A stretch of DNA of 64,000 nt, from the NCBI RefSeq assembly GCF_900103175.1, contig NZ_FNLF01000002.1, positions 1,240,001-1,304,000 on the forward strand. Reading direction: 5' to 3'. The notes under the pieces are model-generated. The model did not search any database. It worked only from the letters and a program-made list of their open reading frames with translations, and was not told the origin of the DNA. Source of the stretch: Tsukamurella pulmonis. Its GTDB lineage: Bacteria; Actinomycetota; Actinomycetes; Mycobacteriales; Mycobacteriaceae. This document shows, piece after piece, positions 1-63,929 of the stretch. The position numbers were made by a program, and so were the translations under genes. How positions within the stretch are numbered: the stretch's first letter is position 1; every line of letters starts with the position of its first letter.

Positions 1-2546
1 AGCTCACGACGGATGGCGGCGGCCACCTGCTTGTCGTCGTAGGCGCCGACGTAGGTGAGCACGGGGTGCCGCTCCTCGGGCGGGGTGAGGATGGTGGACA
101 TCTCGCGGATGCCCGCCATGCTCATCTCCAGTGTGCGGGGGATCGGGGTGGCGCTCATGGTGAGCACGTCGACGTTGGTGCGCAGCGCCTTGATGTGCTC
201 CTTGTGCTCGACGCCGAAGCGCTGCTCCTCGTCGACGATGACCAGCCCCAGGTCCTTCCACCGCACGCCCGTCTGCAGCAGCCGGTGGGTGCCGACGACG
301 ACGTCGACACTGCCGTCGGCGAGACCGTCGAGGACCTGGCGGGTCTCGAGCTTGTCGGTGAAGCGGGACAGGCCCTTGACGGTGACGGGGAAGCCCTGCA
401 TGCGCTCCTGGAAGGTCTTCAGGTGCTGTTGGGCGAGGAGCGTCGTGGGCACGAGGACGGCGACCTGCTTGCCGTCCTGCACGGCCTTGAAAGCCGCCCG
501 CACCGCGATCTCCGTCTTGCCGTAGCCCACGTCGCCGATCACGACGCGATCCATCGGGACCGGCTTCTCCATGTCGGCCTTCACGTCCCCGATGACCGTC
601 ATCTGGTCGATGGTCTCGGTGAAGGGGAAGGCGTCCTCCATCTCGCGTTGCCACGGCGAGTCCGGCGCGAAGGCGTGGCCGGGTGCGGCGTTGCGCGCCG
701 CGTAGAGCTGCACCAGCTCGCCGGCGATCTCGCGAACGGCCTTGCGGGCCTTGCGCTTGGTGTTCTGCCAGTCGCTGCCGCCCATCTTGGACAGCGCGGG
801 CATCTCGCCGCCCACGTACCGGGAGAGCTGGTCGAGGGACTCCATCGGCACGAAGAGCTTGTCGCCGGGCTGGCCGCGCTTGCCCGGCGCGTACTCGATC
901 ACCAGGTACTCGCGCCGCGCACCGGCGACGGTGCGCTCGATCATCTCCACGAACTTGCCGATGCCGTGCTCGTCGTGCACCACCAGGTCCCCGGCGGTCA
1001 GGGCCAGCGGGTCGACCTGGTTGCGGCGCTTGGCGGGCAGCCGCCGGCCGTCGCCGACACCGGCGACCCGGTTGCCCGTGAGGTCGGGCTCCGCGAGCAG
1101 CACGAGCTTCTCGGCCGCGATGGTCAGGCCGGTCTGCAGGCTGCCGCGGAGCACGCCGACGGTGCCCGGCTGCGGGGCGGCGCCCGCGTCGAGCTCGACG
1201 GCCGGGACCTCGGCGTCGCGCAGGCGCTCCATGATCCGGGCCCGGGTGCCCTGGCCCGCGACCACGATCACGCCGGTACCGCCGGATGCGGCGTGCGCGC
1301 GCAGGGTGGCGAACAGCTTCTCCGCCTCGGCCTCGGAACCCCGTGGGGCGGGGGCGTGTTCGGCGTGGACGATCAGCTGGTCGTCGCCGGTCTCGGGCCC
1401 GGCCGCGAGCGGGGAGACGGTCCACCACGGGCGGCCGCGGTCGGAGACGGAGGCGTGCACCTCGTCGAGCGGGCGGTAGGCGCTGGCGCCCAGGTCGATC
1501 CCCGTCGGATCGAGCGGCGCCGCGGAGCCCAGCGCGGCCGCGGTCCACGACGCCTCGAGGAACTCCTGGCCGGTACGGCCGAGATCGGCTGCGCGGGTGC
1601 GGATCTTCTCGGGATCGAGCAGCAGGGTGTGCGCATCCGCGGGGAGCACGTCGGTGAGCAACTGGAGATCGCCCGGGATGAGCGCGGGGATCAGCGCCTC
1701 CATGCCCTCCACCGGAATGCCCTGGGAGAGCTTCTCCAGCATCTCCGCGAGCGCGGCATCGGACTCGTGCTGGGACTTGAGCACCGCGGCGCGCTCGCGG
1801 ACCTCGGGGGTGAGCAGCAGCTCGCGGCAGGGGTAGACGTGCACCGTACCCACCTCGACCTCGGGCTGCGAGCGTTGGTCGGCCACGGAGAAGGCGCGCA
1901 GATCGGTGATCTCGTCGCCGAAGAACTCCACGCGCACAGGCAGATCCGTGGTGGTGGGGAAGACGTCGAGGATGCCGCCGCGCACGGCGAACTCACCGCG
2001 CTTGCCCACCATGTCGACCCGCGTGTAGGCGAGCTCCACGAGGGTCTCGATGAGCTCGTCGAAGTCGTGCTCGAGGCCCTCGCGCAGCGTGATCGACGGT
2101 GCGTCGCCCAGCCCGGGGGCCATCGGCTGCACCAGCGAGCGGACCGTCGCCACCACGGCGCGCAGCGGCGCGCCGTACTCGGCGTCGTCGGGGTGCGCGA
2201 GGCGGCGCAGTACCTGCAGGCGCCGTCCGACGGTGTCGGCACCGGGGGACAGACGCTCGTGCGGCAGGGTCTCCCAGCTCGGGAACTGGGCGACGGCGTC
2301 CTCCCCGAGCATCTCCTGCAGCTCGGAGGAGAGGTCGTCGGCCTCGCGACCCGTGGCCGTGACGACGAGGACGGGGGCGCGATCGGCGAGCGCCGAGACC
2401 AGGAAGGGCCGGGCACCGTCGACCGCGGTGACGGTGAGGTCGGGCCTGCCCGCGGCCCCCGCGAAGGCGGCGACGTCCGGATCGGCGGCGACGGCCCTGG
2501 TCAGTCCGGAAAGGGCCGGGGCGGGGAAGGCAACGACGTCAGGCAC
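1..2546 (-). CDS. mfd: Transcription-repair coupling factor Mfd (C-terminus cut by window edge)
   Basis: Mfd removes RNA polymerase stalled at DNA lesions and recruits UvrA. The frame opens at a GTG at 2546 and stays open to base 1, giving about 848 of roughly 1200 residues. The N-terminus reads [14 protein letters not shown] and is followed by the UvrB-like module ([31 protein letters not shown]). The translocase Walker A motif GDVGYGKTE lies near residue 668, the [15 protein letters not shown] box near residue 772, and the [14 protein letters not shown] motif follows. The window ends just after [15 protein letters not shown], so the last helicase lobe and the UvrA-binding domain are outside. 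It lies beside a TetR gene, as mfd does beside Rv1019 in M. tuberculosis. Identity is certain; the start is chosen from similarity to the mycobacterial N-terminus. Confidence 0.95.
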
Positions 2547-2599
2547 CGAACCAGTGTATTGGCGCGGTCCGACACGTGCCGACGGACCCGAGTGCCGCT

Positions 2600-3259
2600 T
2601 CAGCCGCCGGAGCCCGACGGTGCGTACCGCGCCAGGAAGGTGGTCACCGCCTCGTCGGCGACCGCGTTCGATTCCTCCTGCGTACAGCCCGCGCGACCAC
2701 CCGTGAGCGTGAGCCGGTTCAGCGGCGCGGCGAGGGTCAGCCAGGTGAATTGCTCGGCCGCGGCGGCGGGCCGGTCGATGCGCAGGAGGCCGCGGGCGGC
2801 GAGATGGGCGAGTGCGTCGGCGAGTAGGGACTGGTTGCGGTCCCAGCTGCGCCGCACGTAGTCCTCGGCGACATCGGGGAAGCGGTGCGCCTCCGCGGCC
2901 ACCAGCGTGCGCATGCGGAGGACCGGGCTGCTGAGGACGCCCGCCTGCAGGATGCCGGCGAGTGCGCGCAGTCCCTCCTCGGCGTCCTCGGTCGCCATCA
3001 GCGCGTCCAGGTGCGGGCGCATCGCGTCGCGGCCGCGGTCCACCCAGTCCCGGACGACCGCCGCGTACAGATCGTCCTTCGAGGGGTACTGCCGGTAGAG
3101 GGTCTGTTTGGAGATCCGCGCAGCAGCGGCGACGGCGTCCATCGTGGCGCCCGCGAACCCCCGGTCGAGGAACAGGTCCCGGGCGATGGCGAGCAGGTCG
3201 GCGCCGCCCCGGCCGCCGGGTCGGCCGCGGGGCCGCGGAGTCTCGGATGAGCTGTCCAT
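2600..3259 (-). CDS. TetR-family regulator (Rv1019-like)
   Basis: 219 residues, the usual TetR length. A basic, Gly/Arg-rich N-terminus ([15 protein letters not shown]) leads into the helix-turn-helix at about residues 25-70 ([35 protein letters not shown]); the C-terminal half is the variable ligand-binding and dimer domain. It is divergent from the small membrane gene at 3330, and the gap holds two matching 16-bp palindromes, so it probably represses both itself and that gene. Position next to mfd matches Rv1019 of M. tuberculosis. The ligand cannot be read from sequence. Confidence 0.88.
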
Positions 3260-3268
3260 GCCTGAAAT

Positions 3269-3315
3269 AGTACTGGACAGTACTCGTGCGACGTCGTAGA
3301 GTACTAGTTGGTACT
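3269..3315. promoter_or_regulatory. Paired TetR operators in a divergent promoter
   Basis: Two copies of one 16-bp palindrome: AGTACTGGACAGTACT at 3269-3284 (perfect arms) and AGTACTAGTTGGTACT at 3300-3315 (one arm mismatch). The shared form is AGTACT-N4-RGTACT, with centres 31 bp apart. They fill the gap between the start of the TetR gene at 3259 and the start of the membrane gene at 3330, and the second copy abuts that gene's ribosome site AAGGAGG. Assignment to the adjacent TetR protein is inference from position. Confidence 0.75.
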
Positions 3316-3329
3316 AAAAGGAGGACGCC

Positions 3330-3716: not shown

Positions 3717-3759
3717 GGGGTCGCACGCGGCGCGCGGTACGGCGGGACCGGCCAGTCGT

Positions 3760-4811: not shown

Positions 4812-5363
4812 ATGTCGAGTGTGCCGATCATGGCGATCGCCGCGGGGATCCAACGTGAACGGGCCGCAGCGGGCTGGAGTATGGCTGAGCTGGCACGCCG
4901 GGCGGGCATCGCCAAATCGACGCTGTCCCAACTCGAGGCCGGTACGGGCAATCCCAGCGTCGAGACGCTGTGGGCGTTGGCGACTGCGCTCGGGGTGCCC
5001 TTCGCGCGGCTGCTCGGAGGCGGCGAGGTGGAGGTGACGGTGGTCCGGGCCGACGAAGGAGCGACGGTGCCGTCCGACTCCGCCGCGTACGCCGCGACGC
5101 TGCTCACCGCGTCACCGCCGGGAGTGCGTCGCGACGTCTACCGCATCGACGCCTCGCCGGGATCGCGGAGGGACTCGGCGGCGCACGTTCCCGGCACCGT
5201 CGAACACGTCCTGCTGTGCAGCGGCGAGGCCCTGGCCGGACCCGCGGACCGCCCGGTGACGCTCGCGCCGGGCGACTTCATCACCTACCCGGGCGACGCG
5301 CCCCACGTCTTCGAGGCCCTCGTCGCGGGAACCCGTGCGGTGCTCGTCAGCGAACAGCGCTGA
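4812..5363 (+). CDS. XRE-family regulator with C-terminal cupin domain
   Basis: 183 residues. An XRE helix-turn-helix occupies residues 8-65 (SMAELARRAGIAKSTLSQLEAGTGNPSVETLWALATALGVP), followed by a cupin sensor domain at about 75-180 with the barrel segments GTVEHVLLCSGEA and LAPGDFITYPGDAPHVFEAL. Such proteins sense small metabolites, often amino acids or polyamines. It is transcribed away from azlCD and most likely controls that exporter in response to its substrate. The start ATG at 4812 has GGGAG about 12 bases upstream. Confidence 0.88.
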   Translation: MSSVPIMAIAAGIQRERAAAGWSMAELARRAGIAKSTLSQLEAGTGNPSVETLWALATALGVPFARLLGGGEVEVTVVRADEGATVPSDSAAYAATLLTASPPGVRRDVYRIDASPGSRRDSAAHVPGTVEHVLLCSGEALAGPADRPVTLAPGDFITYPGDAPHVFEALVAGTRAVLVSEQR

Positions 5364-6380: not shown

Positions 6381-7898
6381 TTATCGGCCGCGGAACACCG
6401 TGAGATCGGCGAACAGGTCCAACAACGGCTGCGGGAACACGCCGAGCGCGAGCACCGCCGCGATCCCCAGGGCGATCGCGAATCCGGTGAGCGGGTCCAC
6501 ACGCGGCACGTCGGGAGCGAACTCGTGGGCGGGCGCGAAGTACATCGTCATCAGCACGCGGAGGTAGAACACCGCGGCGAGCGCACTGGCGAGCACGCCG
6601 ACGACGACGAGCCCTCCGCCGCCCTGCTGCGCCGCCGCGGCGAAGACGGCGAACTTCCCGGTGAATCCGCCGGTCAGCGGTATCCCGGCGAAGGACAGCA
6701 GGAACAGCGCCATCGCTCCCGCCAGCAGGGGACGCGAGCGGCCCAGCCCGGCCCACCGCTCCAGGTCGGACACCTCGACGGTGCCGCCGTCGGGCCTCGT
6801 CTCCCGCACGGCCGCCGCCACGGCGAACGCGCCGACCGTGCTCAGTCCGTAGACCGCCAGGTAGAAGCAGACCGCCCCGGTCCCGCGGACGGTCCCCGCG
6901 AAGACGCCGATCAACAGGAAGCCCGTGTGCGCGATCGCCGAGTACGCCAGCATCCGCTTCACGTCGTTCTGGGTGACCGCGATGACGGAGCCGACCAGCA
7001 CTGTGACCACCGCGACCGCGGCGATCACGGGCCGCCAGGGCACGTCGCGGAAGGCGACCAGGGTGAGGCGCACGAGCACGCCGAACGCCGCGATCTTCGT
7101 GGCCGCCGCCATGAACGCGGTGACCGGCGTCGGCGCGCCCTGGTAGACGTCGGGCACCCACGAGTGGAAGGGCACGGCGCCGACCTTGAACAACAGCCCC
7201 ACGCCGATCAGCGCGGCGCCGATCGTGCCGAGCACCGCGTCCTGGGGCGCGGCCGTGATCGACGTGGAGCCCGTCGCGGCGAACCGCAGCGCGATGCCGA
7301 ACAGCAGGATCGCCGAGCTGAACGCGCCCAGCAGGAAGTACTTCAGCGCCGCCTCGAGCGGGAGCAGCCCGCGCCGTTTGGCCAGCGCGCACAGCAGGTA
7401 CAGGGGCAGCGAGAAGACCTCGAGAGCGACGAACAGCGTCAGCCAGTCCTGCGCCGAGACGAAGGCCAGCATGCCGCCGAGCGCGAACAGCGTCAGCGGC
7501 ACCGCCTCCGTGTGCGTGAGCGAGTCGTAGCGCGCCACCATCAGTGCCAGCGCGGGCAGCGTGGAGATCAGCAGCAGGCCTTGCAGTGCGAGTGAGAGGC
7601 CGTCGTCGGCGACCGACCCGGCGAGGACGGCGCGCGGTCGGGAGCCGGTGTCGGCGAGCACCGCCACGGCGATCAGCGCGGCCACCACCGCGCCCCCGCC
7701 GATGACCGCGTGGGCCTTCGCCCGGATCCCGGCGGGCGCGAACGACTCCACGAGCACTCCCACGATCGCCGCGGCGAAGACGATGATGGCGGGCGCGATC
7801 TGCGAGTACTCGATGTGCGGCGCCGGGAGCGCAGCGAGCGGGCCGAGCGGTTGCGGCGCTGGGAGCGCGGCGAGAGGGCCGAGTGGTTGCGGGTTCAT
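6381..7898 (-). CDS. nuoN: NADH dehydrogenase I subunit N
   Basis: 505 residues, a polytopic antiporter-like subunit that pumps protons in the membrane arm of complex I. Conserved stretches include FKVGAVPFHSWVPDVYQGAPTPVTAFMAAATKIAAF and NDVKRMLAYSAIAHTGFLLIGV, which carry the key lysines of the half channels. It is the last gene of the nuo operon; its ATG overlaps the nuoM stop (ATGA). Odd: the N-terminus holds a tandem repeat of twelve residues, PQPLGPLAALPA, before the usual LPAPHIEYSQIAP start seen in relatives. Confidence 0.96.
   Translation of the reverse strand: MNPQPLGPLAALPAPQPLGPLAALPAPHIEYSQIAPAIIVFAAAIVGVLVESFAPAGIRAKAHAVIGGGAVVAALIAVAVLADTGSRPRAVLAGSVADDGLSLALQGLLLISTLPALALMVARYDSLTHTEAVPLTLFALGGMLAFVSAQDWLTLFVALEVFSLPLYLLCALAKRRGLLPLEAALKYFLLGAFSSAILLFGIALRFAATGSTSITAAPQDAVLGTIGAALIGVGLLFKVGAVPFHSWVPDVYQGAPTPVTAFMAAATKIAAFGVLVRLTLVAFRDVPWRPVIAAVAVVTVLVGSVIAVTQNDVKRMLAYSAIAHTGFLLIGVFAGTVRGTGAVCFYLAVYGLSTVGAFAVAAAVRETRPDGGTVEVSDLERWAGLGRSRPLLAGAMALFLLSFAGIPLTGGFTGKFAVFAAAAQQGGGGLVVVGVLASALAAVFYLRVLMTMYFAPAHEFAPDVPRVDPLTGFAIALGIAAVLALGVFPQPLLDLFADLTVFRGR
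7819..7890 (-). repeat. 36-bp tandem duplication in the nuoN 5' coding end
   Basis: Two adjacent 36-bp units, 7819-7854 and 7855-7890, differ at four positions and encode two copies of PQPLGPLAALPA. The period is a multiple of three, so the frame is kept. The duplicated segment contains the family's normal N-terminal LPAP, which suggests slippage duplication of the original leader rather than an added domain. Four differences mean the event is not very recent, or that the copies are drifting. Confidence 0.85.
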
Positions 7899-9367
7899 CG
7901 GGCGACCTCCGCGACCGTGGGCGAGACCGACGGATTGATCGCGTCCAGCGCGGGCCCGGGGAAGAAGCCCAGCACGAACAGGCCGACCACCAGCGGTACC
8001 AGTACGAGGAGCTCGTGCGGCCGCGCATCGTCGACGGTGCGTTCCACGGCCTCCGGCACCGGGCCGGTGAACATCCGCTGGTAGGTCCACAGCACGTACA
8101 TCGCCGAGAGCACCAGGGCGAGAACGGAGATCACCGCGGCGACGGCCCACCGCGGGTACGTGCCGACCACGACGAGCAGCTCGGAGACGAACGGGCCGAG
8201 GCCCGGGAGCGAGAGCGTCGCGAGCCCGGCGAGGAGGAAGATCGCGCCCAGCTTCGGCGCCCGTGACCAGGCGCCGCCGAAGTCGCCGATCCGGCGGCTC
8301 CCGCGCCGGGCCACCAGGACCCCGGCGACGAGGAACAGCGCGGCGGTGGCGACGCCGTGGTTGACCATGTAGAGCACCGATCCCGCCTGGGAGTCGCCGG
8401 TGCGGGCGAAGACGCCGAGGATGATGAAGCCGAAGTGGCTGATCGAGGTGTATGCGATGAGCGACATCACGTCGGACTGTCCGATCGCGAGGATCGCGCC
8501 GTAGACGATCCCGATCACGGCCAGCGCCGCGACCCACGGCGCGAACCGGGCCGCCGCGTCGGGGAACAGGGTCAGGCAGTAGCGGAGCATCGCGAAGGTG
8601 CCCACCTTGTCGACGATCGCCATCATCAGTACGGCCGTCGGGGGATTGGTCTGCACAGCAGCGCCCGGCAGCCACGTGTGCAGCGGCCACAGCGGCGCTT
8701 TCACCGCGAAGGCGAACAGGAAGCCCAGGAACATCAGGTCCTGCCCGATCCCGGGGCCGGGGCGGGCACCGTCGAGCAGGGCCCGTAGGTCGAACGTTCC
8801 GGCGGTGGCGTACACCCCGACCACCGCGGCCAGCATGACCAGGCCTCCGGCGAGGTTGTAGAGCAGGAACTTCAACGCCGCGTGCGTGCGGAGCCCGCGG
8901 TCGCTGCCGGTGCCGCCGAAGCCGGCCAGCAGGAAGTACAGGGGGATCAGCATGGCCTCGAAGACCAGGTAGAACAGCAGCACGTCGGTGGCGACGAAGC
9001 TGACGAGTACCATCGCCTCGACGGCCAGCGTGAGCGCGACGTACGTGCCGCCCCGCTCGGTGGACGCCTCCCGCCAGCCGGCGAGCAACAGGACCGGCAG
9101 CAGTGCGGCGGTGAGCAGCACCAGCACCAGCCCGGTGCCGTCCAGGCCGAGGCGGTATCCGGCCCCGAACGACGGTATCCAGGAGTGCGATTCGACGAAC
9201 TGGAAGCCGCCGGCGGGGTCGAAGGCCACCGCCAGCCCGATGCCGATCACGAGCGCCACGAGCGCGGCCGCGAGCCCGATCCAGCGTGCCGCGCGGGGCA
9301 GTGCGGCGGCGGCCACGGCGCCGATCGCGGGCGCCGCCCACAGCAGCGTCAGCCACGGCCCGGTCAT
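7895..9367 (-). CDS. nuoM: NADH dehydrogenase I subunit M
   Basis: 490 residues, antiporter-like proton-pumping subunit of complex I with about 14 helices. Diagnostic stretches are [42 protein letters not shown] and [25 protein letters not shown]. The ATG at 9367 overlaps the nuoL stop as ATGA and the gene's own stop overlaps the nuoN start in the same way. Length and motifs are normal for the family. Confidence 0.96.
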
Positions 9368-11241
9368 GAGAGCCACACGGCGGCGGCGCCGATGAGCACC
9401 GCCGTCCCGGCCAGCATCGTCAGCGCGTAACTGCGGGCGTACCCGGTCTGCGAGCGTCGCAGCAGGAGCGATCCGAGGTGCACGCCTGCGGGGATCGCGT
9501 CGACGGCACCGTCGATACCCGTCCGTTCGGCCACGAGCAGGGCGTTCGTGGCGGCCTGCCCGGGCCGCTGGAAGACGGCCTCGTTGAGGGCGTCCCCGTA
9601 GAGGTCGCGCCGTGCGGCGCGGGTCAGGGCGCTCACCGCCGACGGTGCCTCCACGGGCACGGTCCGCGTGACTCGGACCGCGACAGCCACGCCGACCGCG
9701 ACCGCGCCGAGCACGAGCAACGTGACCGCCCAGGCGGGAATCGCGTGGTGCGCTTCGGGCGCGGATCCGACAGCGGGAGCGAGGAAGTCCGCGAGCGTGC
9801 CGCCGATCACCAGGAGCGCGCCCGCCCCGATGCTGCCGAGGGCCAGCACCACCATGGGCGCCGTCATCACGCGCGGCGACTCGTGCGGATGCGTGCCCGC
9901 GCGCCAGCGGGGCCTGCCGAAGAAGGTCAGCACCATCACCCTCGTCATGTAGAAGCCGGTGATCCCCGCGCCGAGGATCGCCGCCCCGCCCAGGACGACA
10001 CCCCAGAATCCGCCGCGGCCCAGCGCGGCCTCGATGATCCCGTCCTTGGTGAAGAAGCCCGACAACGGCGGGACGCCGATGATGGCGAGGTAGCCGAGCC
10101 CGAAGGTGATCGCGGTGACCGGCATGAGCTTTCCGAGACCGCCGTAGCGGCGCATGTCGGTCTCGTCGTTCATCCCGTGCATGACCGAGCCGGCGCCGAG
10201 GAACAGCCCGGCTTTGAAACAGCCGTGTGCCAGCAGGTGCGCGATCGCCAGGGCGTAGCCGGCGGGGCCGAGCCCGGCGGCGAGCACCATGTAGCCGATC
10301 TGGCTCATGGTCGACGCGGCCAGGGCCTTCTTGATGTCGTCCTTCGCGCAGCCGATCACCGCGCCGAAGAGCAGCGTCACCGCGCCGACCGCGAGCACGA
10401 AACCCTGTGCCACGGGCGCTGCCTCGAAGACGGGGCCGGTGCGCACGATGAGGTAGACGCCCGCGGTGACCATCGTCGCGGCGTGGATGAGCGCGGAGAC
10501 GGGGGTGGGGCCCTCCATCGCGTCGCCGAGCCAGCTCTGCAGGGGCACCTGCGCGGACTTCGCGCACGCCGCCAGGAGCAGCAGGAGCCCGAGCCAGGTC
10601 AGCGTGCCTTCACCGGCCTCACCGGCGTGCGGCAGGAACTCGCCGAAGGTCGTGGTGCCGAAGGTCGTCAGGGTGACGGCCACCGCCAGCGCCAGGCCCA
10701 TGTCGCCGACGCGGTTGACGATGAAAGCCTTCCGGGCGGCGGTCGCCGCCGCCGGCTTGTGCTGCCAGAATCCGATGAGCAGGTAGGAGGCGAGACCGAC
10801 GCCCTCCCAGCCGAGGTAGAGCACGACCAGGTCGTCGGCGAGAACGAGCACCAGCATCGCGCCGAGGAACAGGTTGAGGTAGCCGAAGAACCGCCGCCGT
10901 CCGGGATCGTCCGCCATGTACCCGATCGAGTAGACGTGGATCAGCGTGCCCACGCCCGTGATCAGCAGGGCGAAGCACACCGACAGCTGATCGAGCCGCA
11001 GGGCCAGGTCCACCGAGAGGTCGCCGCCCGAGAACCAGTGGTAGAGCACGGTGCTCACGGAACGATCGGCGGTCTCGCGCCCCAGGAGCAGCACGAACGC
11101 GACGACCGCCACCACGAAGGAGAGAGCCGCGACCGCGGTCCCGAGCAGGTGCCCCCAGGTGTTGGTGCGGCGCCCGCCGAGCAGCAGGGCCGCCGCTCCG
11201 GCGAGGGGGATCAGCGGCAGTGCCGCGAGGAGTCCGGTCAC
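9364..11241 (-). CDS. nuoL: NADH dehydrogenase I subunit L
   Basis: 625 residues, the largest antiporter-like subunit, carrying the long lateral helix that braces the membrane arm. Visible signatures are [89 protein letters not shown] and [21 protein letters not shown]. It begins with an ATG three bases after the nuoK stop and overlaps nuoM by four bases. Confidence 0.97.
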
Positions 11242-11244
11242 GTC

Positions 11245-11544: not shown

Positions 11545-12314
11545 GGCGAGACCTCCTCGTCGCGGAGTGCGTGCGGGAGCTCGTCGTCGAGCGAGGGCGC
11601 GCGATCGGGCAGCGCTCGCCGCTCGCCGGGCACGCGCGGGGTGAGCGTGTGGTTGACGGAGTCGAGGGCGGGCGAACCGTCGGGCAGGCGGGCCGGCAGG
11701 TCGACCGCGTTGCCGAGGGCGTAGACGCCGGGGTTGGGCAGCGGCGTGGCGCGCCGGCCCTCGCGGAACCGGCGGATCGACTGCTCGCGCTGGCTCAGCG
11801 CCGTCGCCAGCTTCTCGCGGTGCGCGAGGATCATCGCGCCCAGCGTGGCGGTGATGAGCAGCGCCGCCGTGAGCTCGAAGGACCAGACGTAGCGCACGAA
11901 GACGGTGTCCGCCAGGGCCTCCACGGAGTTCGGGGGATACGTGCCCGACGGTGCCGCCGGGCCCGGCAGGGAGGCGCGGGCCACGAGGCCGATGAGCAGC
12001 AGCCCGAACCCGAGTCCCGCCGCGGCGGCGGCGATCCGGTGCCCGCGCAGCGTCTCGACCAGGGAATCGGAGGAGTCGACGCCGACCAGCATGACCACGA
12101 ACAGGAACAGCATCATCACGGCACCGGTGTAGACCACCACCTGCACCACGCCGAGGAAGGTCGCGCCCTGCGCGATGTAGGCGACGGCGAGCAGGATCAT
12201 GGTGGCCGCCAGGCACAGCGCCGAGTAGACGGCCTTGGAGGCGAGCACGACGCCGAGCGCGAACAGCACCGCGGGCACGGCCACGATCCAGAACGCCCAC
12301 TCCTCCCCGGTCAC
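11541..12314 (-). CDS. nuoJ: NADH dehydrogenase I subunit J
   Basis: 257 residues. The N-terminal 180 residues form the usual five-helix NuoJ core ([33 protein letters not shown]); the rest is a hydrophilic actinobacterial extension rich in Arg, Pro and Asp. The GTG start at 12314 overlaps the nuoI stop. The subunit takes part in coupling quinone reduction to proton pumping. Confidence 0.95.
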
Positions 12315-19804: not shown

Positions 19805-20523
19805 GAGTACGACCTCCGGGTGTCGGGCGACGGGATCTCGGCGCCGTGGAACTCGACGCCGATGCCGCCGAGCGGGTAGTCCTTGCGCTGCGGGTGGCCC
19901 TCCCAGTCGTCCGGCATCTCGATCCGGGTGAGCGACGGGTGGCCGTCGAAGACGATGCCGAAGAAGTCGTAGGTCTCCCGCTCGTGCCAGTCGCTCGTCG
20001 GGTAGACCGGGAACAGCGACGGGATGTGCGGATCGGCGTCCGGGCAGGAGGTTTCGAGGCGCAGCCGGCGACCGTGGGTGATCGACTGCAGGTGGGTGAC
20101 CGCCCGCAGCTCGGAGCCCGCATCGTCCGGGAAGTGCACCCCCGAGGTGCCCAGGCACATCTCGAAGCGCAGCGCCGGGTCGTCGCGCAGCAGCCGCGCC
20201 ACGGCCACCACGTGCTCGCGCGGCACGCGCAGCGTCACCTCGCCGCGGTGGACCACGACGGCGTGCACCGCATCGTCGAACGCGGGAGCGCCGCCGGTCC
20301 CCGTCAGTGCATCGCACAGGCGCGCGAGCACCCCGTCGTAGCCCTCGGGCACGGGCTCCTCGCCGGGCCCGGGCATGACCACGGGGCGGGTGATCCGCCC
20401 GTAGCCGGAGGTGTCGCCGGTGCCGCCGCTGAACATGCCGGTCCGGGTGCGCACCACGTCGGGCTGCGGCGCAGCGGGTTCGACGGTGCCGCCGGGCTCG
20501 GGCAGGTCGGGGGAGTCCGTCAT
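19801..20523 (-). CDS. nuoC: NADH dehydrogenase I subunit C
   Basis: 240 residues of the 30-kDa type. The first 75 residues are a Pro/Gly-rich actinobacterial extension; the conserved domain ends with [45 protein letters not shown], the family signature. It is a structural subunit of the peripheral arm. The ATG at 20523 overlaps the nuoB stop. Confidence 0.96.
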
Positions 20524-30669: not shown

Positions 30670-30706
30670 GCGTGGGGAAGCGTAGCGTGCGGCGCACCGT
30701 CGAACC

Positions 30707-44979: not shown

Positions 44980-46950
<1,971 letters not shown>

Positions 46951-50532: not shown

Positions 50533-51587
50533 ACTGCCTGAAGCGCCTCGCGCGCACGGCGCTGGTGGTCGGCACCGTCGGCCTCACCCTGACCGGCTGC
50601 CTCGTCGAATCCGGCCGGCCCGAGCAGTCCCGCTCCATCGGCGGGGCGACGGCGTGCCCGGTCGAACCGGACCCGACGGTGACGGGGACCGTGCGGATCG
50701 GCTGGCAGGAGATCCCGAACGGGGACCTGATCGTCAAGGACACGGGGCTGCTCAAGACCTGCCTGCCGAACGTGAACGTCGTGTGGAGCAAGTTCGCCTC
50801 CGGCGGCGACGTGATCCAGGCGTTCGGCGCCAACAGCCTCGACGTGGGCCTGCTCGGCAGCGCTCCCGCCGCGAAGGCGCTCAGCGCACCGCTGAACATC
50901 GACATGAAGGTCATCTGGATCCAGGATCGGATCGGCGCCGCCGAATCGCTGGTCGCGAAGGACCCGGCGATCAGGACCGTCGCCGACCTCAAGGGCAAGC
51001 GGATCGCCGTGCCCTTCGCCTCGACCGCGCACTACAGCCTGCTCACCGCCCTGGACAAGGCCGGCGTCACCGACGCGCGGGTCATCAACCTGGCCCCGGA
51101 CGCCATCCGCGGCGCGTGGGGCGGCGGGCAGATCGACGCCACCTACATCTGGGAGCCCACGCTGAGCCAGCTGGGAGGAACCGTCCTGACGGACAGTGCG
51201 AAGGTCGCCGAGCAGGGTGCCCCCACCTACGACCTCGAGGGCGCCCGCGGCGACTTCGTGAAGAACAACCCGGCCTTCCTCAAGGCCTGGACCGCGGCAC
51301 AGGGCTGGGCGGCGAACCTGCTGAACACCGACCCGAACAAGGCCGCCGAGCACATCGCCGGCCAGCTCGGCGTGCCACTGGACCAGGTGCTCACGCAGGT
51401 CAAGGGCTACGCCTACTTCGACGCGAAGACCCAGGGCGGCGCCGACCACCTCGGCGGCCAGCTCGGCGCCGACCTCCGCCGGACCGCAGAGTTCCTGCTC
51501 CAGCAGGGGCAGGTCCAGGGCGTCGCGCCGGCGCAGCACTACACCGACGGCGTCTACGCCACAGCCGCACAGGGGGTATCGAAGTGA
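50529..51587 (+). CDS. ABC transporter substrate-binding lipoprotein (TauA-like)
   Basis: 352 residues. A lipoprotein signal ends in the lipobox LTGC (cysteine at about residue 24). The mature part resembles TauA: VRIGWQEIPNGDLIVKDTGLLKTCLPNVNVVWSKFASGGDVIQAFGANSLDVGLLGSAPAAKAL, then LKGKRIAVPFASTAHYSLLTALDKAGV and IWEPTLSQLGG. The SGGDVIQAFGANSLDVGLLG segment is typical of taurine-type binding proteins. ATG overlaps the permease stop (ATGA). Confidence 0.9.
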   Translation: MNCLKRLARTALVVGTVGLTLTGCLVESGRPEQSRSIGGATACPVEPDPTVTGTVRIGWQEIPNGDLIVKDTGLLKTCLPNVNVVWSKFASGGDVIQAFGANSLDVGLLGSAPAAKALSAPLNIDMKVIWIQDRIGAAESLVAKDPAIRTVADLKGKRIAVPFASTAHYSLLTALDKAGVTDARVINLAPDAIRGAWGGGQIDATYIWEPTLSQLGGTVLTDSAKVAEQGAPTYDLEGARGDFVKNNPAFLKAWTAAQGWAANLLNTDPNKAAEHIAGQLGVPLDQVLTQVKGYAYFDAKTQGGADHLGGQLGADLRRTAEFLLQQGQVQGVAPAQHYTDGVYATAAQGVSK

Positions 51588-52369
51588 CGGGGACCGAACG
51601 CGTCGAGCTGACCGGGCTCGGCAAGACCTACGACACCGCGAGCGGACAGACCGTCGCGCTGCAACCGACCGACCTCACCATCGAGCCCGGCGAGTTCGTC
51701 TCCATCGTCGGGCCCTCGGGCTGCGGCAAGACGACGCTGCTGCGGCTCATCGCCGGCTTCGAGGAACCCACGGAGGGCGTCGTCGAGGTCGGCGGCGCGC
51801 GGGTCACGGCACCGTCGGCCGACCGCGGCGTGGTCTTCCAGGCCCCCACCCTGTACCCGTGGCTGACGGTGCGCGGCAACGTCGAGTTCGGCCCCAAGGT
51901 GAGCGGCGTGGGCAAGGCCGAGCGCCGGGGGCAGGCGCAGAAGCTGCTCGACCTCGTGGGGCTCGGCGACTTCGGCGACAAGCGGCCCTACGAGCTCTCG
52001 GGCGGCATGCAGCAGCGCGCGCAGATCGCCCGCGTCCTGGTCAACGACCCGGCGATCGTGCTCATGGACGAGCCCTACGGCGCGCTCGACGCACTCACCC
52101 GCGAGCGCCTGCAGGTGGACCTGCTCACGATCTGGCGCGAGGCGGGCAAGACCATCGTCTTCATCACCCACTCGGTGGAGGAGGCGGTGTTCCTCAGCAC
52201 CCGAGTCCTGGTGATGAGCGCCCGCCCGGGCCGCGTGGTGATCGACCGGAAGGTGGAGCTGCCGGGCGACGGTCCGGACACGGTGCGCGATCCGTCGGTG
52301 ACCGCTTCGCCCGAGTTCCAAGCCCTGCGTTCGGAGCTCGCCGCCGCGATCTACGCGGCCCACGGCTGA
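51584..52369 (+). CDS. ABC transporter ATPase, taurine/sulfonate type
   Basis: 261 residues. Walker A GPSGCGKTT, Q-loop VVFQAPTLYPWLTV, signature LSGGMQQRAQIARVL, Walker B VLMDEPYGALDALTRE and the H-loop in VFITHSVEEAV are complete. The GTG at 51584 overlaps the binding-protein stop as GTGA. With the two preceding genes it makes a full importer. Confidence 0.94.
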   Translation: MTGTERVELTGLGKTYDTASGQTVALQPTDLTIEPGEFVSIVGPSGCGKTTLLRLIAGFEEPTEGVVEVGGARVTAPSADRGVVFQAPTLYPWLTVRGNVEFGPKVSGVGKAERRGQAQKLLDLVGLGDFGDKRPYELSGGMQQRAQIARVLVNDPAIVLMDEPYGALDALTRERLQVDLLTIWREAGKTIVFITHSVEEAVFLSTRVLVMSARPGRVVIDRKVELPGDGPDTVRDPSVTASPEFQALRSELAAAIYAAHG

Positions 52370-52411: not shown

Positions 52412-53242
52412 GTGGTGAGTGCCCCCAAACTGCCCGTATCGCTGCCGACCGGGCCGGCCCGCAAGCTGTTCGCCCCGGCCTACGCGCTCTACGAGCGACG
52501 GCTGGTCAGTGAGCTCACCGCCTCGTACCGCGACGGCGCGCAACGGCCGCGGCACGTCGCGGTGCTCTGCGACGGCAACCGGCGCTGGGCCCGCGCCGCC
52601 GGGTTCAGCGACGTGAGCCACGGCTACCGCATGGGGGCCAAGAAGATCGCCGAGATGCTCGAGTGGTGCGACGAGGCCGGGATCGAGCTCGCCACCATCT
52701 ACCTGCTCTCGACCGAGAACCTGCGCCGCGATCCCGACGAGCTCGCAGCCCTGCTCGAGATCATCACCGACGTGGTCGAGGAGATCTCCGGCCCGGACAA
52801 GAACTGGTCGGTCAAGATCGTCGGCGCGATGGACCTGCTGCCGCCCGACGCCGCCCGCCGGCTCACCGCGGCGGCCGAGGGCACCGAGGGCCGCACCGGT
52901 ACCCACGTCAACGTGGCCGTCGGGTACGGCGGGCGCAAGGAGATCGTCGACGCCGTGCAGTCGCTGCTGCGCGCGCGCATCGCCGAGGGGATGACGGCGG
53001 AGGAGCTCGTCGACGCGGTCACCGTCGAGGGGATCGACCAGCACCTCTACACCAAGGGGCAGCCCGATCCCGACCTCGTCATCCGCACGTCGGGTGAGCA
53101 GCGGCTCTCCGGCTTCCTGCTCTGGCAGAGCGCGTACAGCGAGATCTGGTTCACCGAGGCCTACTGGCCCGAGTTCCGCCGCGTCGACTTCCTGCGCGCG
53201 CTGCGCGACTACGCCGCCCGGCACCGTCGCTTCGGCGCGTAG
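52412..53242 (+). CDS. Short-chain cis-prenyl diphosphate synthase (Rv1086 type)
   Basis: 276 residues of the UppS family. The catalytic motif CDGNRRWARAAG is intact, as are IYLLSTENLRRDPDEL, NVAVGYGGRKEIVDAV and DPDLVIRTSGEQRLSGFLLWQSAYSEIWFTEAYWPEFR. It is nearly colinear with Rv1086, known to make Z,E-farnesyl diphosphate, the primer for decaprenyl phosphate used in cell wall synthesis. The N-terminal 45 residues before the domain are normal for this branch. GTG start at 52412. Confidence 0.93.
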   Translation: MVSAPKLPVSLPTGPARKLFAPAYALYERRLVSELTASYRDGAQRPRHVAVLCDGNRRWARAAGFSDVSHGYRMGAKKIAEMLEWCDEAGIELATIYLLSTENLRRDPDELAALLEIITDVVEEISGPDKNWSVKIVGAMDLLPPDAARRLTAAAEGTEGRTGTHVNVAVGYGGRKEIVDAVQSLLRARIAEGMTAEELVDAVTVEGIDQHLYTKGQPDPDLVIRTSGEQRLSGFLLWQSAYSEIWFTEAYWPEFRRVDFLRALRDYAARHRRFGA

Positions 53243-56006: not shown

Positions 56007-57218
56007 ATGGAGGAACTGAGCGTCACCGACCGTTACCTGCGGCTGGGCCTGCGGTTCGACCGCATCGAAACCGGTTTCGTGGACGCGTACTTCGGCGATC
56101 CGGCGCACCGTCGCGCGGTGGAGGCCGAGGACGCGCCCGAACCCGCCCGCCTGGCGGCCGAGGCGCGGGCCCTGCTGCGCGATCTGGAGGCGGAGACCTC
56201 CCTGAGCCCGCAGCGGCGCGAGTTCCTGATCGGGCACGTCGCCGCGCTCGAGTGCTCGGCCCGGAAGTTCGACGGTGCGCCGATCGGCTTCGTCGACGAG
56301 GTGAAGGCCTACTTCGACGTCGACATCGCGCTGGGGGACACCGCCGATTACGAGGCGGCGCACGCCCGGCTCGACGAGCTGCTCCCGGGCTCCGGCCCGC
56401 TGCAGCCGCGCATGCAGGCGCAGCGGGAGCGGTTCGCGGTCCCGGCCGAGCGGGTGCCCGAGGTGGTCGACGCGCTGGCCGGTGCGCTGCGCGACGTCGT
56501 GCGCGAGCGCTACCCGCTGCCGGAGGCGGAGACGGTGGCCTTCGAGATCGAGCACGACAAGCCCTGGTCGGGGTTCAACTACTACCTCGGCGACTACCGC
56601 TCCCGGGTCGCGGTCAACGGCGACCTGCCGCAGTACCTGTCGTCGCTGCCGCACCTCATCGCGCACGAGGCCTACCCCGGCCACCACACCGAGCACTGCC
56701 GCAAGGAGCAGCTGCTCGTCGCGGGGGAGAACCAGCCGGAGCAGACCATCTTCCTGGTGAACACGCCGCAGTGCCTCATGGCGGAGGGCCTGGCGGACCA
56801 TGCGCTGCGCGCCGCGATCGGCCCCGGTTGGGGCGCGTGGGCGCGGGAGATCTACGCCGACCTCGGCCTGAGCTTCGACGGGGAACTGGCCGAGGCGATC
56901 GCGGAGGCCTCGTCGGGCCTGCTGCACGTGCGGCAGGACGCGGCACTGCTGCTGCACGACCGGCACGCGAGCGAGGACGAGGTGGCCGGCTACCTGCAGC
57001 GCTGGGCGCTCATGGCGGAGCGCAGTGCTCGGCAGTCGCTGCGCTTCGTCGGCTCGCCGCTGTGGCGGGCCTACATCTCCACCTACGTCGAGGGCTACGC
57101 CCTGCTCGGCGAATGGCTCGACCGGGCGGAGTCCGGGCCCGCCAGGCTGGACCGCTTCGGCAGGCTGCTCGACGAGCCCCTCACCCCGTCTGCGCTGCGG
57201 CGCGAGCTCGCGGCTTAG
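56007..57218 (+). CDS. DUF885-like zinc metallopeptidase
   Basis: 403 residues. The zinc motif [20 protein letters not shown] (HEAxPGHH) matches the DUF885 family of metallopeptidases. The C-terminal part [19 protein letters not shown] carries a further conserved glutamate. At about 400 residues it is shorter than usual DUF885 proteins (550-600), with the N-terminal region reduced. No signal peptide, so probably cytosolic. It starts 46 bases from coaA on the opposite strand. Confidence 0.82.
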
Positions 57219-57227: not shown

Positions 57228-58526
57228 ATGAGCGAAAACAGCGTGAACTCCGCGTCCCTCGCCGAACTCGATCCCGAGGTCGCCGCCGCCATGAACGGCG
57301 AGCTCGCGCGGCAGCGCGACACGCTGGAGATGATCGCCTCGGAGAACTTCGTGCCGCGCGCCGTGCTGCAGGCGCAGGGTTCCGTGCTCACCAACAAGTA
57401 CGCCGAGGGCTACCCCGGCCGCCGCTACTACGGCGGCTGCGAGTACGTCGACGTGGTCGAGGACCTGGCTCGCAACCGCGCCAAGGAGCTCTTCGGCGCC
57501 GAGTTCGCCAACGTCCAGCCGCACGCCGGCGCGCAGGCCAACGCAGCCGTGCTGCAGGCGCTCATGGAGCCGGGCGAAACCCTGATGGGCCTCGACCTCG
57601 CGCACGGCGGCCACCTCACGCACGGCATGCGCCTGAACTTCTCCGGCAAGCTCTACGAGAACGTCTTCTACGGCGTGTCCAAGGAGGACCACCGCGTCGA
57701 CATGGACGAGGTGCGCAAGATCGCCCTCGACTCCAAGCCGAAGGTGATCGTCGCCGGCTGGTCCGCCTACCCGCGCCACCTCGACTTCGCGGCCTTCCGC
57801 TCCATCGCCGACGAGGTGGGCGCCCACCTCTGGGTCGACATGGCGCACTTCGCCGGCCTCGTCGCCGCCGGCCTGCACCCGAGCCCCGTCCCGCACGCCG
57901 ACGTGGTCAGCTCGACGGTGCACAAGACCCTCGGCGGCCCCCGCTCCGGCATCATCCTGGCGAAGCAGGAGTGGGCCAAGAAGCTCAACTCCGCGGTCTT
58001 CCCCGGCCAGCAGGGCGGCCCGCTCATGCACGTCATCGCCGCCAAGGCCGTCGCGCTCAAGGTCGCGGGCACGGAGGAGTTCCGCGCGAAGCAGCAGCGC
58101 ACGCTCGACGGTGCCAAGATCCTCGCCGAGCGCCTGAACGGCAAGGACGTGGCCGACGCCGGCGTCACCGTCCTCACCGGCGGCACCGACGTGCACCTCG
58201 TGCTCGTCGACCTGCGCAACAGCGACCTCGACGGCCAGCAGGCCGAGGACCTCCTCCACGAGGTCGGCATCACCGTCAACCGCAACGCCGTGCCCTTCGA
58301 CCCGCGTCCGCCGATGGTCACCTCGGGCCTGCGGATCGGCACCGCCGCCCTGGCCAGCCGCGGCTTCGGCGAGAAGGAGTTCACCGAGGTCGCCGACATC
58401 ATCGGCACCGCGTTGGCGCAGGGCAAGGCCGCCGACACGGCCGCGCTGCGCGCCCGCGTGTCGGCGCTGGCGCTCGAGGTCCCGCTGTACGAGGGCCTCG
58501 AGGACTGGGGTCTCCTCTCTCGCTGA
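57228..58526 (+). CDS. glyA: Serine hydroxymethyltransferase
   Basis: 432 residues. [43 protein letters not shown], the folate loop, the PLP lysine in [22 protein letters not shown] and [24 protein letters not shown] are all intact. The enzyme converts serine and tetrahydrofolate to glycine and methylene-tetrahydrofolate. It starts 9 bases after the peptidase stop, so the two are probably cotranscribed. It precedes desA2 as in M. tuberculosis. Confidence 0.98.
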
Positions 58527-58576: not shown

Positions 58577-58613
58577 TTGAGTGCCGGGTGGGAGCTGCCT
58601 TACAGTGTCCGGG
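58577..58613 (+). promoter_or_regulatory. Leaderless promoter of desA2
   Basis: TTGAGT (58577-58582), an 18-base spacer and TACAGT (58601-58606) place transcription at about 58613, the GTG start codon. No ribosome site precedes the GTG, in agreement with leaderless translation. Confidence 0.6.
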
Positions 58614-61012: not shown

Positions 61013-61022
61013 GTCTCGTAGG

Positions 61023-61060
61023 TTCGACGGTGCCGGGCCGCCCGGTCCGGCACCGTCGAA
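61023..61060. terminator. Stem-loop terminator built from the CGACGGTGC repeat pair
   Basis: TTCGACGGTGCCGG (61023-61036) pairs perfectly with CCGGCACCGTCGAA (61047-61060) around a 10-base loop, just after the phoH2 stop. The two arms contain opposite copies of the dispersed 9-mer of this window. Confidence 0.85.
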
Positions 61061-61075
61061 ACCGGGAGAGGGGAC

Positions 61076-61570: not shown

Positions 61571-61594
61571 GCCCGCGCCGCCGAGCGCGTTGCC

Positions 61595-61640: not shown

Positions 61641-61649
61641 GGAGGACAC

Positions 61650-62000
61650 GTGCACATCGACAAGGATCTGGTCGCCGCCTCGGCGACCCCGCTGGTGCTG
61701 AGCATCCTCAGCCGCGGCGACAGCTACGGCTACGCCATCCTCACCCGCGTCCGGGAGCTCTCGGGCGGGCGGCTGGAGTGGTCCGACGGCATGCTCTATC
61801 CGCTGCTGCACCGGCTCGAGCGGCTCGGCCAGGTCGAGTCCCGTTGGGAGAGAGCCGAGACCGGTCGCCGCCGCAAGCACTACGCCATCACGCCGGCCGG
61901 GCGGGAGGCGCTCGCGGACCGTCGGGACCAGTGGCGGGTCGTCAGTGCCGCCCTGGACGGCCTCTGGTCCGACGGTGCGCCGCAGGCGGGCCTCGCATGA
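61650..62000 (+). CDS. PadR-family transcriptional regulator
   Basis: 116 residues. The winged helix is clear: ATPLVLSILSRGDSYGYAILTRVRELSGGRLEWSDGMLYPLLHRLERLGQVESRW, then GRRRKHYAITPAGREALADRRDQW. The short form usually pairs with a membrane protein, as here. GTG start at 61650 behind GGAGGA. Its paired palindromes overlap the promoter region; the inducer is unknown. Confidence 0.92.
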   Translation: MHIDKDLVAASATPLVLSILSRGDSYGYAILTRVRELSGGRLEWSDGMLYPLLHRLERLGQVESRWERAETGRRRKHYAITPAGREALADRRDQWRVVSAALDGLWSDGAPQAGLA

Positions 62001-63325: not shown

Positions 63326-63357
63326 GTTCCACTGACCGGTCTAGCGGACCCGCTCCC

Positions 63358-63415
63358 GACTTCACAGCGTCAGCCCACCCACCTGCGGAATCTTCTGGGC
63401 CAACGCTGTGAAGTC
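63358..63415. repeat. Long inverted repeat between genes
   Basis: GACTTCACAGCGT (63358-63370) and ACGCTGTGAAGTC (63403-63415) are perfect 13-bp arms around 32 bases, inside which GCCCA (63373-63377) and TGGGC (63396-63400) can pair further. It follows the membrane gene by 33 bases and could be a terminator, but its arms are less GC-rich than other terminators here. Confidence 0.65.
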
Positions 63416-63460
63416 ATGGAGTGGGGTTCCGACGGTGCCGCGGGCGGGAATGCTGAGGGC

Positions 63461-63901
63461 ATGACGATCCCCGTGCTCCTCGGTGCCTCCGCACTGCTCA
63501 ATGCGATCCTGGCCGGTTTCTACTTCGCGTACGCGACGGTGATCGCCGGGCAGCGCACCGCCGACGGGGGCGAGGCGATGGTCCGGATGAACGCGGCGGT
63601 CGAGCGGCCTCCGTTCATCGCGCTGTTCCTGGTCGCGCCCACGGCGGCGGCGCTCTCCTCCGTCTGGATCCTGGTGGCCGACGGTGCCCGTGCCGCCGGG
63701 ATCGTCGCGGCGATCGCCGCGGTCTGCGCCGTCGCCGCCTGTGTCTCGACGATGGCGGTGAACGTGCCGCTCAACCAGCGGCTCGCGGCGGGTGCCGTCG
63801 GCTGGCCGGAGTACGCCCGCACCTGGGGCACCTGGAACCTCGCGCGCACGTGGCTGTGCGCGCTCGCCGCCGTGGGGCTGGGCCTGGCGGCCCTGGCGTG
63901 A
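63461..63901 (+). CDS. DUF1772 membrane protein
   Basis: 146 residues with four hydrophobic helices. GASALLNAILAGFYFAYATVIAGQ at the start, MVRMNAAVERPPFIALFLVAPTAAALSS in the middle and the NVPLNQRLA motif with ARTWGTWNLARTWLCALAAVGLGL at the end identify DUF1772. Function unknown (the family is related to anthrone oxygenase-like membrane proteins). ATG at 63461 has GAGGG upstream. Confidence 0.87.
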   Translation: MTIPVLLGASALLNAILAGFYFAYATVIAGQRTADGGEAMVRMNAAVERPPFIALFLVAPTAAALSSVWILVADGARAAGIVAAIAAVCAVAACVSTMAVNVPLNQRLAAGAVGWPEYARTWGTWNLARTWLCALAAVGLGLAALA

Positions 63902-63929
63902 CGGGCACCGTCGGGCGTGGTTCCCGCAG

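Follow-up and report, generated by a model that had tools for sequence, protein, structure and literature searches.

A nine-base sequence abundant throughout the genus Tsukamurella is a candidate DNA uptake sequence

The closest described counterparts of the motif reported here are the DNA uptake sequences (DUS) of the Neisseriaceae and the uptake signal sequences (USS) of the Pasteurellaceae, the only families in which such discrimination is known according to PMC12616744; for mycobacterial species, according to PMC10526031, no such uptake sequences are reported. The motif, the 9-mer CGACGGTGC, is the commonest 9-mer in a 64 kb stretch of the Tsukamurella pulmonis genome (C2:1240001-1304000, hereafter the window), which belongs to an assembly of 4.78 Mb in two contigs (C1 and C2). 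Among named DNA, T. tyrosinosolvens gives the best record for 24 kb of the window (89.4% identity over 32% of the query), for 20 kb of C1 (83.5% over 35%) and for the comEA/comEC region (85.6% over 85%), in agreement with the genus. A reading made from the sequence alone had likened it to uptake sequences, to HIP1 and to Chi or KOPS sites and, among these analogues, uptake sequences fit best.

Like DUS, CGACGGTGC is short and non-palindromic, occurs about once per 1-2 kb on both strands, lies in coding and non-coding DNA and forms intergenic inverted pairs, and the preferred word may have shifted in one divergent lineage (here the genome G008). It differs from DUS in its unrelated sequence, in its high-GC Gram-positive host and in the pilus genes of that host, which are of the Tad/Flp kind rather than type IVa with ComP, and uptake is in this case something that we infer. 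With the USS (Hin-USS and Apl-USS) it shares a 9-base core retained in coding sequence against codon preference, but here too the sequence is unrelated, CGACGGTGC has no AT-rich flanking parts and the receptor is putative in both. Chi, KOPS and HIP1 are likewise frequent genome-wide words; Chi and KOPS, however, are polarised by replication and HIP1 is palindromic, and CGACGGTGC is neither. As regards the machinery, the closest parallel is Micrococcus luteus, another actinobacterium, which resembles Tsukamurella in having comEA/comEC and tad genes and whose tad genes are needed for transformation, according to PMC4322843 and the review PMC6370729. It has two tad clusters, whereas one TadA was found in the window genome, and the term 'uptake sequence' is absent from the M. 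luteus paper (PMC4322843).

The window contains 57 exact copies of CGACGGTGC (32 forward, 25 reverse), located as follows.

926..934, plus strand, CGACGGTGC copy
1157..1165, plus strand, CGACGGTGC copy
2094..2102, plus strand, CGACGGTGC copy
2413..2421, minus strand, CGACGGTGC copy
2615..2623, plus strand, CGACGGTGC copy
5062..5070, plus strand, CGACGGTGC copy
5194..5202, minus strand, CGACGGTGC copy
6776..6784, plus strand, CGACGGTGC copy
8032..8040, plus strand, CGACGGTGC copy
8766..8774, minus strand, CGACGGTGC copy
9506..9514, minus strand, CGACGGTGC copy
9640..9648, plus strand, CGACGGTGC copy
11946..11954, plus strand, CGACGGTGC copy
12973..12981, plus strand, CGACGGTGC copy
13040..13048, minus strand, CGACGGTGC copy
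14176..14184, plus strand, CGACGGTGC copy
14446..14454, plus strand, CGACGGTGC copy
15487..15495, plus strand, CGACGGTGC copy
20481..20489, plus strand, CGACGGTGC copy
22967..22975, minus strand, CGACGGTGC copy
26721..26729, minus strand, CGACGGTGC copy
28148..28156, plus strand, CGACGGTGC copy
28472..28480, minus strand, CGACGGTGC copy, intragenic, inverted pair with 28502
28502..28510, plus strand, CGACGGTGC copy, intragenic, inverted pair with 28472
28728..28736, plus strand, CGACGGTGC copy
30694..30702, minus strand, CGACGGTGC copy, intergenic, directly upstream of tRNA-Leu (30594-30669, minus)
31095..31103, minus strand, CGACGGTGC copy
32461..32469, minus strand, CGACGGTGC copy
32654..32662, minus strand, CGACGGTGC copy
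32980..32988, plus strand, CGACGGTGC copy
33213..33221, minus strand, CGACGGTGC copy
34766..34774, plus strand, CGACGGTGC copy, intact in 11 of 12 aligned congeners
37243..37251, plus strand, CGACGGTGC copy, intact in 12 of 13 aligned congeners
37967..37975, plus strand, CGACGGTGC copy, intact in 0 of 4 aligned congeners
38339..38347, minus strand, CGACGGTGC copy
38579..38587, minus strand, CGACGGTGC copy
42363..42371, minus strand, CGACGGTGC copy, intragenic, inverted pair with 42380
42380..42388, plus strand, CGACGGTGC copy, intragenic, inverted pair with 42363
42766..42774, minus strand, CGACGGTGC copy
43642..43650, plus strand, CGACGGTGC copy
43983..43991, minus strand, CGACGGTGC copy, intragenic, inverted pair with 44036
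44036..44044, plus strand, CGACGGTGC copy, intragenic, inverted pair with 43983
45489..45497, plus strand, CGACGGTGC copy, intact in 14 of 14 aligned congeners
46492..46500, minus strand, CGACGGTGC copy
50572..50580, minus strand, CGACGGTGC copy
51809..51817, minus strand, CGACGGTGC copy
53221..53229, minus strand, CGACGGTGC copy
56105..56113, minus strand, CGACGGTGC copy
56270..56278, plus strand, CGACGGTGC copy
57913..57921, plus strand, CGACGGTGC copy
58106..58114, plus strand, CGACGGTGC copy
61021..61063, plus strand, intergenic hairpin of two inverted CGACGGTGC copies, directly after the stop of gene 59735-61012
61025..61033, plus strand, CGACGGTGC copy, left arm of the intergenic hairpin
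61050..61058, minus strand, CGACGGTGC copy, right arm of the intergenic hairpin
61970..61978, plus strand, CGACGGTGC copy
63430..63438, plus strand, CGACGGTGC copy
63679..63687, plus strand, CGACGGTGC copy
63905..63913, minus strand, CGACGGTGC copy, intergenic, directly after the stop of gene 63416-63901

The sequence-only reading had claimed at least 52 copies (31 in one orientation, 21 in the other), and the over-representation that it described is borne out; its figure of 28-fold was taken against base composition, which is too weak a null. The four sites that it named as intergenic (30694, 61025, 61050 and 63905) are intergenic in the present gene calls too. Its gap at 15.5-28 kb is real as a count, with three sites where 11 would be expected; when windows of 12.5 kb were scanned, however, such a gap had P = 0.07 and is not significant. 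The whole genome contains 2,855 copies (1,410 forward and 1,445 reverse), compared with 71 (37 and 34) for a control in which the letters of CGACGGTGC are reversed.

In order to compare these counts with expectation we used a sample of 1.264 Mb without N, 26% of the genome, made up of the window and 60 stretches of 20 kb (one from C1 and 59 from C2), in which CGACGGTGC occurs 760 times (369 forward, 391 reverse). The core is nine bases long, with signal in the flanks only at position -1 (T or C), at +1 (C or G) and weakly at +2, giving the weak extension Y-CGACGGTGC-S, and none of the 50 positions around the core carries more than 0.19 bits. Each base of the core counts; the commonest one-letter variant, CGACGGCGC, has 343 copies in the sample, although the GC bias favours CGACGGCGC.

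A codon-preserving shuffle is the fair null here because the genome is mostly coding and the shuffle keeps both the proteins and the codon usage. Genes were called by a purpose-written simple codon-usage program (1,204 genes, 86% of the sample), and of the 760 copies 677 lay wholly within called genes, 81 were intergenic and two straddled gene ends. Twenty shuffles gave an expectation of 111 (standard deviation 9, maximum 128) against the 677 observed in coding sequence, so that the excess stands under the codon-shuffled control that had been proposed and, as had been claimed, protein sequence alone is insufficient to explain it. When all 9-mers were ranked in the same way, CGACGGTGC came first, with 677 against 108 expected (z 54), and the other top-ranked words mostly overlap it. 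Between genes, where it is also the commonest 9-mer, the 81 copies compare with 8-14 expected, a six- to tenfold excess. Unmasked Markov models of orders 0, 1 and 3 predict 38, 75 and 160 of the 760 copies, and models of orders 1-6 in which the copies were masked predict 73-204. An artefact of composition was considered and ruled out by the codon-preserving shuffles, the masked Markov models and the intergenic excess.

The copies within genes, counted without the two that straddle gene ends, encode Asp-Gly-Ala (230), x-Thr-Val-x in reverse (221), Ala-Pro-Ser (118) and Thr-Val in the forward orientation (83), with 25 in the remaining two frames. Thus the statement that copies lie in every reading frame is correct, all six combinations of frame and orientation being used, but the use is very unequal (5 to 230 copies). 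The choice of glycine codon depends on completion of the motif: between C-GAC and GC, where both sides complete CGACGGTGC, the codon is GGT in 59% of 389 cases, compared with 14% (of 1,383) and 15% (of 73) where one side matches and 9% (of 495) where neither does.

Conservation was followed by alignment to 14 congeners (G007 was not used), in which 32 of the 57 window sites had at least one aligned congener; high-scoring segment pairs shorter than 300 bases were skipped and gapped sites were scored as lost. The sites were intact in 155 of 245 site-by-genome cells (63%), compared with 34% for other 9-mers with seven G+C. The rare codons within the motif were retained four to five times as often as elsewhere, GGT in 48 of 55 cells against 188 of 818 and GCA in 62 of 76 against 39 of 235; cells with a changed residue were omitted from these comparisons (5 and 62 for GGT, 7 and 37 for GCA), and cells share ancestry and are not independent. 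The density of the motif looks more constant than its positions, because some sites, such as 37967 (intact in none of four), are lost in most congeners and yet the density there is high.

Along the replication arms, as defined by GC skew, 382 copies of the sample lie on the leading and 369 on the lagging strand (P = 0.66; the stretch from C1 was excluded), and across 16 Tsukamurella genomes 48-53% of copies are forward. Even spacing of the copies was ruled out, since the coefficient of variation, 1.018, matches that of random simulation (1.017, standard deviation 0.038). Nor is there a clear preference among types of intergenic region, with 0.45 copies per kb in tandem, 0.50 in convergent and 0.38 in divergent gaps. 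Six intergenic pairs in the sample lie within 60 bp of one another, five in the hairpin orientation, none in the opposite orientation and one direct; four of the five hairpin-oriented pairs fold as putative terminator-like hairpins, with z ≤ -3.7 relative to shuffles, and one gives z -1.1. For the hairpin at 61021..61063, the RNA fold of 61008-61070 gave -44 kcal/mol (z -6.9, with none of 200 shuffles as stable), and both arms are intact in both congeners that align there (G004 and G005). Inverted repeats of DUS and USS are reported to act as terminators (PMC12616744).

Foreign-looking DNA is poorer in CGACGGTGC, an observation that rests on a few chosen islands and on low-GC bins. Bins of 4 kb with less than 66% GC carry 0.08 copies per kb (four copies in 12 bins), compared with 0.39 to 0.76 in the others, and an element inserted in tadA (see below) carries 0.14 per kb. 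In T. tyrosinosolvens, a 27 kb island of transposon, arsenic and mercury (mer/ars) genes has four copies (0.15 per kb) and the adjoining 22.9 kb has 20 (0.87 per kb), while in the plasmid pTpau01 (NC_014159) 34 copies fall in the 34 kb devoted to siderophore synthesis and 10 in the other 66 kb. Two Tsukamurella phages are poorer as well, with 3 and 10 copies in 40 kb; in selected genes, TIN2 has 2 versus 0.9 expected (15 genes used) and TPA2 has 5 versus 1.5 (24 genes used). As separate observations, pTpau01 is a mosaic whose siderophore nonribosomal peptide synthetase part is chromosome-like in its richness in CGACGGTGC and whose remainder is poor, and a low-GC stretch of the window genome (61.6%; C2:3240001-3260000, L152), about 11 kb from comEC, has two copies in 20 kb.

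Tsukamurella is a soil and opportunistic bacterium, and all 16 of its genomes carry CGACGGTGC, with 827-4,002 copies each. The density is 0.42-0.82 per kb in 14 of them, 0.27 in G008 and 0.17 in G007, densities being counts divided by rounded genome sizes, and most of these values resemble those of DUS and USS genomes. Read by eye, densities reach at most about 0.22 per kb in the rest of the family (285 genomes) and about 0.18 per kb in genomes outside the genus in a class sample of 394; in 80 named actinobacterial loci of other genera (1.52 Mb), the 115 copies (0.08 per kb) compare with a dinucleotide expectation of 72. The ratio of observed to codon-shuffled counts is 6.1 in the window genome, 8.0 in the congener block, 5.1 in T. 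tyrosinosolvens, 6.1 in pTpau01 and 3.6 in G008, compared with 0.8 to 2.4 in 11 groups of other genera, and the roughly twofold excess in some relatives is therefore ordinary background. In these group shuffles G007 was skipped, having too little sequence, and the loci L031, L035, L037, L074, L081, L082, L098, L101, L106, L107, L108 and L110 and the single loci L268-L270 belong to no group. The proposed count in related genera thus confines the enrichment to Tsukamurella, and we regard it as a trait of that one genus. In G008 (220 kb), the leading words are CCGACGGTG, with 45 copies against 9.9 expected, and CGACGGTGC, with 42 against 12.4; the slight lead of CCGACGGTG is no more than suggestive of a separate dialect or of a decaying remnant.

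In the window genome (G000) comEA adjoins comEC, as it does in the annotation of T. tyrosinosolvens, and tad genes are present. The order in an uninterrupted tad locus (G013) is a ParA-like gene, TadA, TadB, TadC, a 56-residue DUF4244 pilin (flp-like), a TadE-like and a TadE/G-like gene. Because the TadE protein is divergent (Pfam called it in 3 of the 16 Tsukamurella genomes), TadB/TadC (PF00482) and TadA (PF00437) served as markers of the locus. TadB/TadC were found in 14 of the 16 genomes and not in G007 or G008; TadA was not found in G007 and has an internal stop in G008. These two genomes, with pilus genes missing or decayed, are the two congeners with the fewest copies of CGACGGTGC.

TadA is in one piece and adjacent to TadB in nine of the 16 genomes, and in five (G000, G004, G005, G009 and G011) tadA is split, with 16-43 kb between TadA and TadB. 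In the split loci the TadA profile match ends early, at position 261 or 262, and in all five the tadB side starts with the last 57-92 residues of TadA and has, within 9 kb, the same three genes, for two tyrosine recombinases and a DUF6262 protein, a trio that we take to be of the Tn554 kind. The element in the window genome is the following.

C2:596779-632372 (G000; L251, L281 and L282), mobile element splitting tadA near its 3' end, marked by the recombinase trio

The genes of the set are 66-100% identical to those of the window genome, and the recombinases are 100% identical among three genomes and T. tyrosinosolvens, in which (NZ_LR134469, L298) the same set stands beside tadB with metal-resistance genes behind it. 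Mobile elements break competence genes in several lineages (PMC4774983, in its accessible portion), and the element with its own recombinases in tadA of several congeners resembles those in comM, comYC, comK and comFA; the target here is the Tad pilus ATPase, which that portion of PMC4774983 does not mention. It is possible that tadA is an anti-competence insertion hotspot. A gene of the TfoX/Sxy family is also annotated beside the tad locus of T. tyrosinosolvens (L298:1309-1638), and similar-looking genes were seen by eye in G000 (L282:12894-13223) and G013 (L285:13827-14156); TfoX/Sxy is a competence regulator in Haemophilus.

The codon null, the presence on both strands and in coding and non-coding DNA, the retention at rare codons and the genus-wide range together support the earlier suggestion of a genome-wide signal at the level of DNA. 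The process behind it should be one that acts on DNA, blind to strand, frame and place, within one genus, that spares newcomers and that maintains copies; biased uptake with recombination accounts for all of this, and an intracellular signal does so less well. We therefore favour, with a little more than even confidence, the interpretation that CGACGGTGC is a DNA uptake sequence like DUS and USS, read by a Tad/Flp pilus with ComEA/ComEC. In support of this, replication polarity is absent, some copies pair as hairpins, genes for uptake are present, few copies go together with loss of tad genes, and mobile elements have settled in tadA more than once. Extracellular DNA bearing the motif would be bound at the cell surface, the most probable receptor being a minor pilin of the Tad/Flp system (TadE or an Rv3654c-like TadE/G) or ComEA, and the pilus would deliver it to ComEA and ComEC, through which one strand would enter the cell to be recombined by RecA. 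Copies of the motif born by mutation would spread by this biased recombination, because fragments bearing them are preferentially taken up, until there was one per 1-2 kb, mostly at sites of low cost. The fuller claim, of an independently evolved third system of sequence-specific uptake, the first in a Gram-positive or high-GC lineage, with specificity in Tad/Flp and with elements answering it inside tadA, we hold more tentatively, at somewhat short of an even chance.

Several observations weigh against an uptake sequence. The strongest statistical argument is that unmasked Markov models of orders 6 and 7 predict 598 and 714 of the 760 copies and, taken alone, make CGACGGTGC unexceptional; their expectations are high because the models contain the motif's own sub-words (at order 7, its 8-mers), and they were set aside for that reason, although unmasked they give the outcome that the sequence-only reading had named as a refutation; with copies masked, the models of orders 1-6 speak for the motif. 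The hairpin pairs are few (five against none), and the phage TPA2 shows a mild excess (10 copies in 40 kb, 0.25 per kb), below its host yet above zero. ComEC was found in all 25 genomes searched, inside and outside the genus, and TadA/TadB/TadC are present in most relatives without the motif, and therefore the genes do not explain the specificity; the TadE-like minor pilins and ComEA are candidate receptors. That G007 and G008 combine tad loss with few copies may reflect a single event or an early branch, since none of the 14 congeners in the comparison is more distant than G008 (78.5% identity across the aligned block), and the absence from G007 is weak evidence because that assembly has 890 contigs. 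With its tadA split, the window genome may at present be unable to make the pilus or to transform, and yet its density is normal, and so is that of congeners with split tadA (0.55-0.62 per kb); an insertion of recent date would be consistent both with this and with recombinases that are 100% identical. Since tad pili have other roles, the coincidence with tad loss and the settling of an element in tadA are suggestive only. Finally, a literature search, with most subscription papers outside its reach, gave no report of DNA uptake or transformation in Tsukamurella; its matches for Tsukamurella with an overrepresented motif were unrelated by title, none of the matches listed for an uptake sequence in Actinobacteria or Actinomycetota was one by title, and the papers listed as containing CGACGGTGC as letters had titles on unrelated subjects.

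Of the alternatives, an intracellular signal survives best, although we consider it unlikely: the motif would act on RecBCD or AdnAB as Chi does, or would be bound by a segregation or nucleoid protein in the way of KOPS, matS or AIMS sites, and would be selected for its spread over the chromosome. Chi-type motifs are also frequent and species-specific, and such a signal would suit a word that is genome-wide, retained at rare codons and poorer in foreign-looking DNA. In E. coli, however, Chi and KOPS sites are oriented with respect to replication; CGACGGTGC shows no such bias (382 against 369, P = 0.66) and its strands are near-balanced in 16 genomes, so that this analogy of the sequence-only reading fits less well. 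Intergenic hairpin pairs are not expected of Chi, and the excess of Chi over codon expectation is smaller than the approximately sixfold excess seen here.

A mark like HIP1, in which a DNA methyltransferase or a bias of mutation or repair creates and protects the word, is a less probable explanation. HIP1 is frequent in cyanobacteria (PMC4390886), and the high, genus-limited density and random spacing of CGACGGTGC are in keeping with such a mark; the likeness ends with the palindrome, which HIP1 is and CGACGGTGC is not. A purely mutational process should also act on resident islands, which are poorer in CGACGGTGC, and a bias of mutation would, we infer, seldom depend on as many as nine bases.

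More doubtful again is that the signal serves not free DNA but conjugal transfer of the chromosome, either distributive conjugal transfer or transfer by an FtsK-like translocase such as that of Streptomyces. Mycobacteria, which are close relatives, have conjugal chromosome transfer, and a signal for it would likewise give DNA of the same species an advantage, so that the word would spread through the bias in transfer, but there is no orientation bias and the one named mobilizable plasmid examined, pTpau01, is mostly poor (10 copies in 66 kb, against 34 in the 34 kb siderophore part).

That the motif simply follows from how a GC-rich genome uses codons and codon pairs is very improbable: the order-7 prediction of 714 and the ratios of up to 2.4 over codon shuffle in several other groups speak for it, but it is opposed by the coding (677 against 111) and intergenic (81 against 8-14) excesses, by the share of GGT, which is 14-15% with one side in place and climbs to 59% only when the motif is completed on both, and by the related genera without enrichment. 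Descent from a dispersed repeat or from a family of small transposons, which many copies and some inverted pairs might suggest, can practically be dismissed, since the flanks have no common sequence (at most 0.19 bits at 50 positions) and 677 of the 760 copies lie wholly within called genes.

Some further features were noted in passing. On the minus strand of the window, 27152-27215 matches the Guanidine-III riboswitch (Rfam, 54.4 bits), directly upstream of the small called gene 26819-27133, whose product we would guess to be a guanidinium exporter, and 58928-58995 matches the Rfam family ASdes barely above the cut-off (40.9 against 40), antisense within the called gene 58613-59440, and is perhaps merely conserved coding sequence. 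Given their genes (rpsF, ssb and dnaB in one, rpsT and comEC in the other), two 'plasmids' of T. tyrosinosolvens NCTC13231 in PLSDB (NZ_LR134456 and NZ_LR134460) look like fragments of the chromosome. A contig of an Acidobacteriaceae metagenome-assembled genome (CAJCHX010000710.1, L031) encodes a serine hydroxymethyltransferase 90% identical to that of the window and is probably actinobacterial contamination.

If CGACGGTGC is indeed an uptake sequence, it would be a third unrelated case, in an actinobacterium with mycolic acids, which would mean that such tags evolve repeatedly. The dispute over their origin, by drive through biased uptake or by selection for self-DNA, would become testable in an independent clade, and a route of natural transformation would be indicated in the order that contains Mycobacterium. 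The interpretation predicts that DNA uptake by Tsukamurella would depend on the motif.

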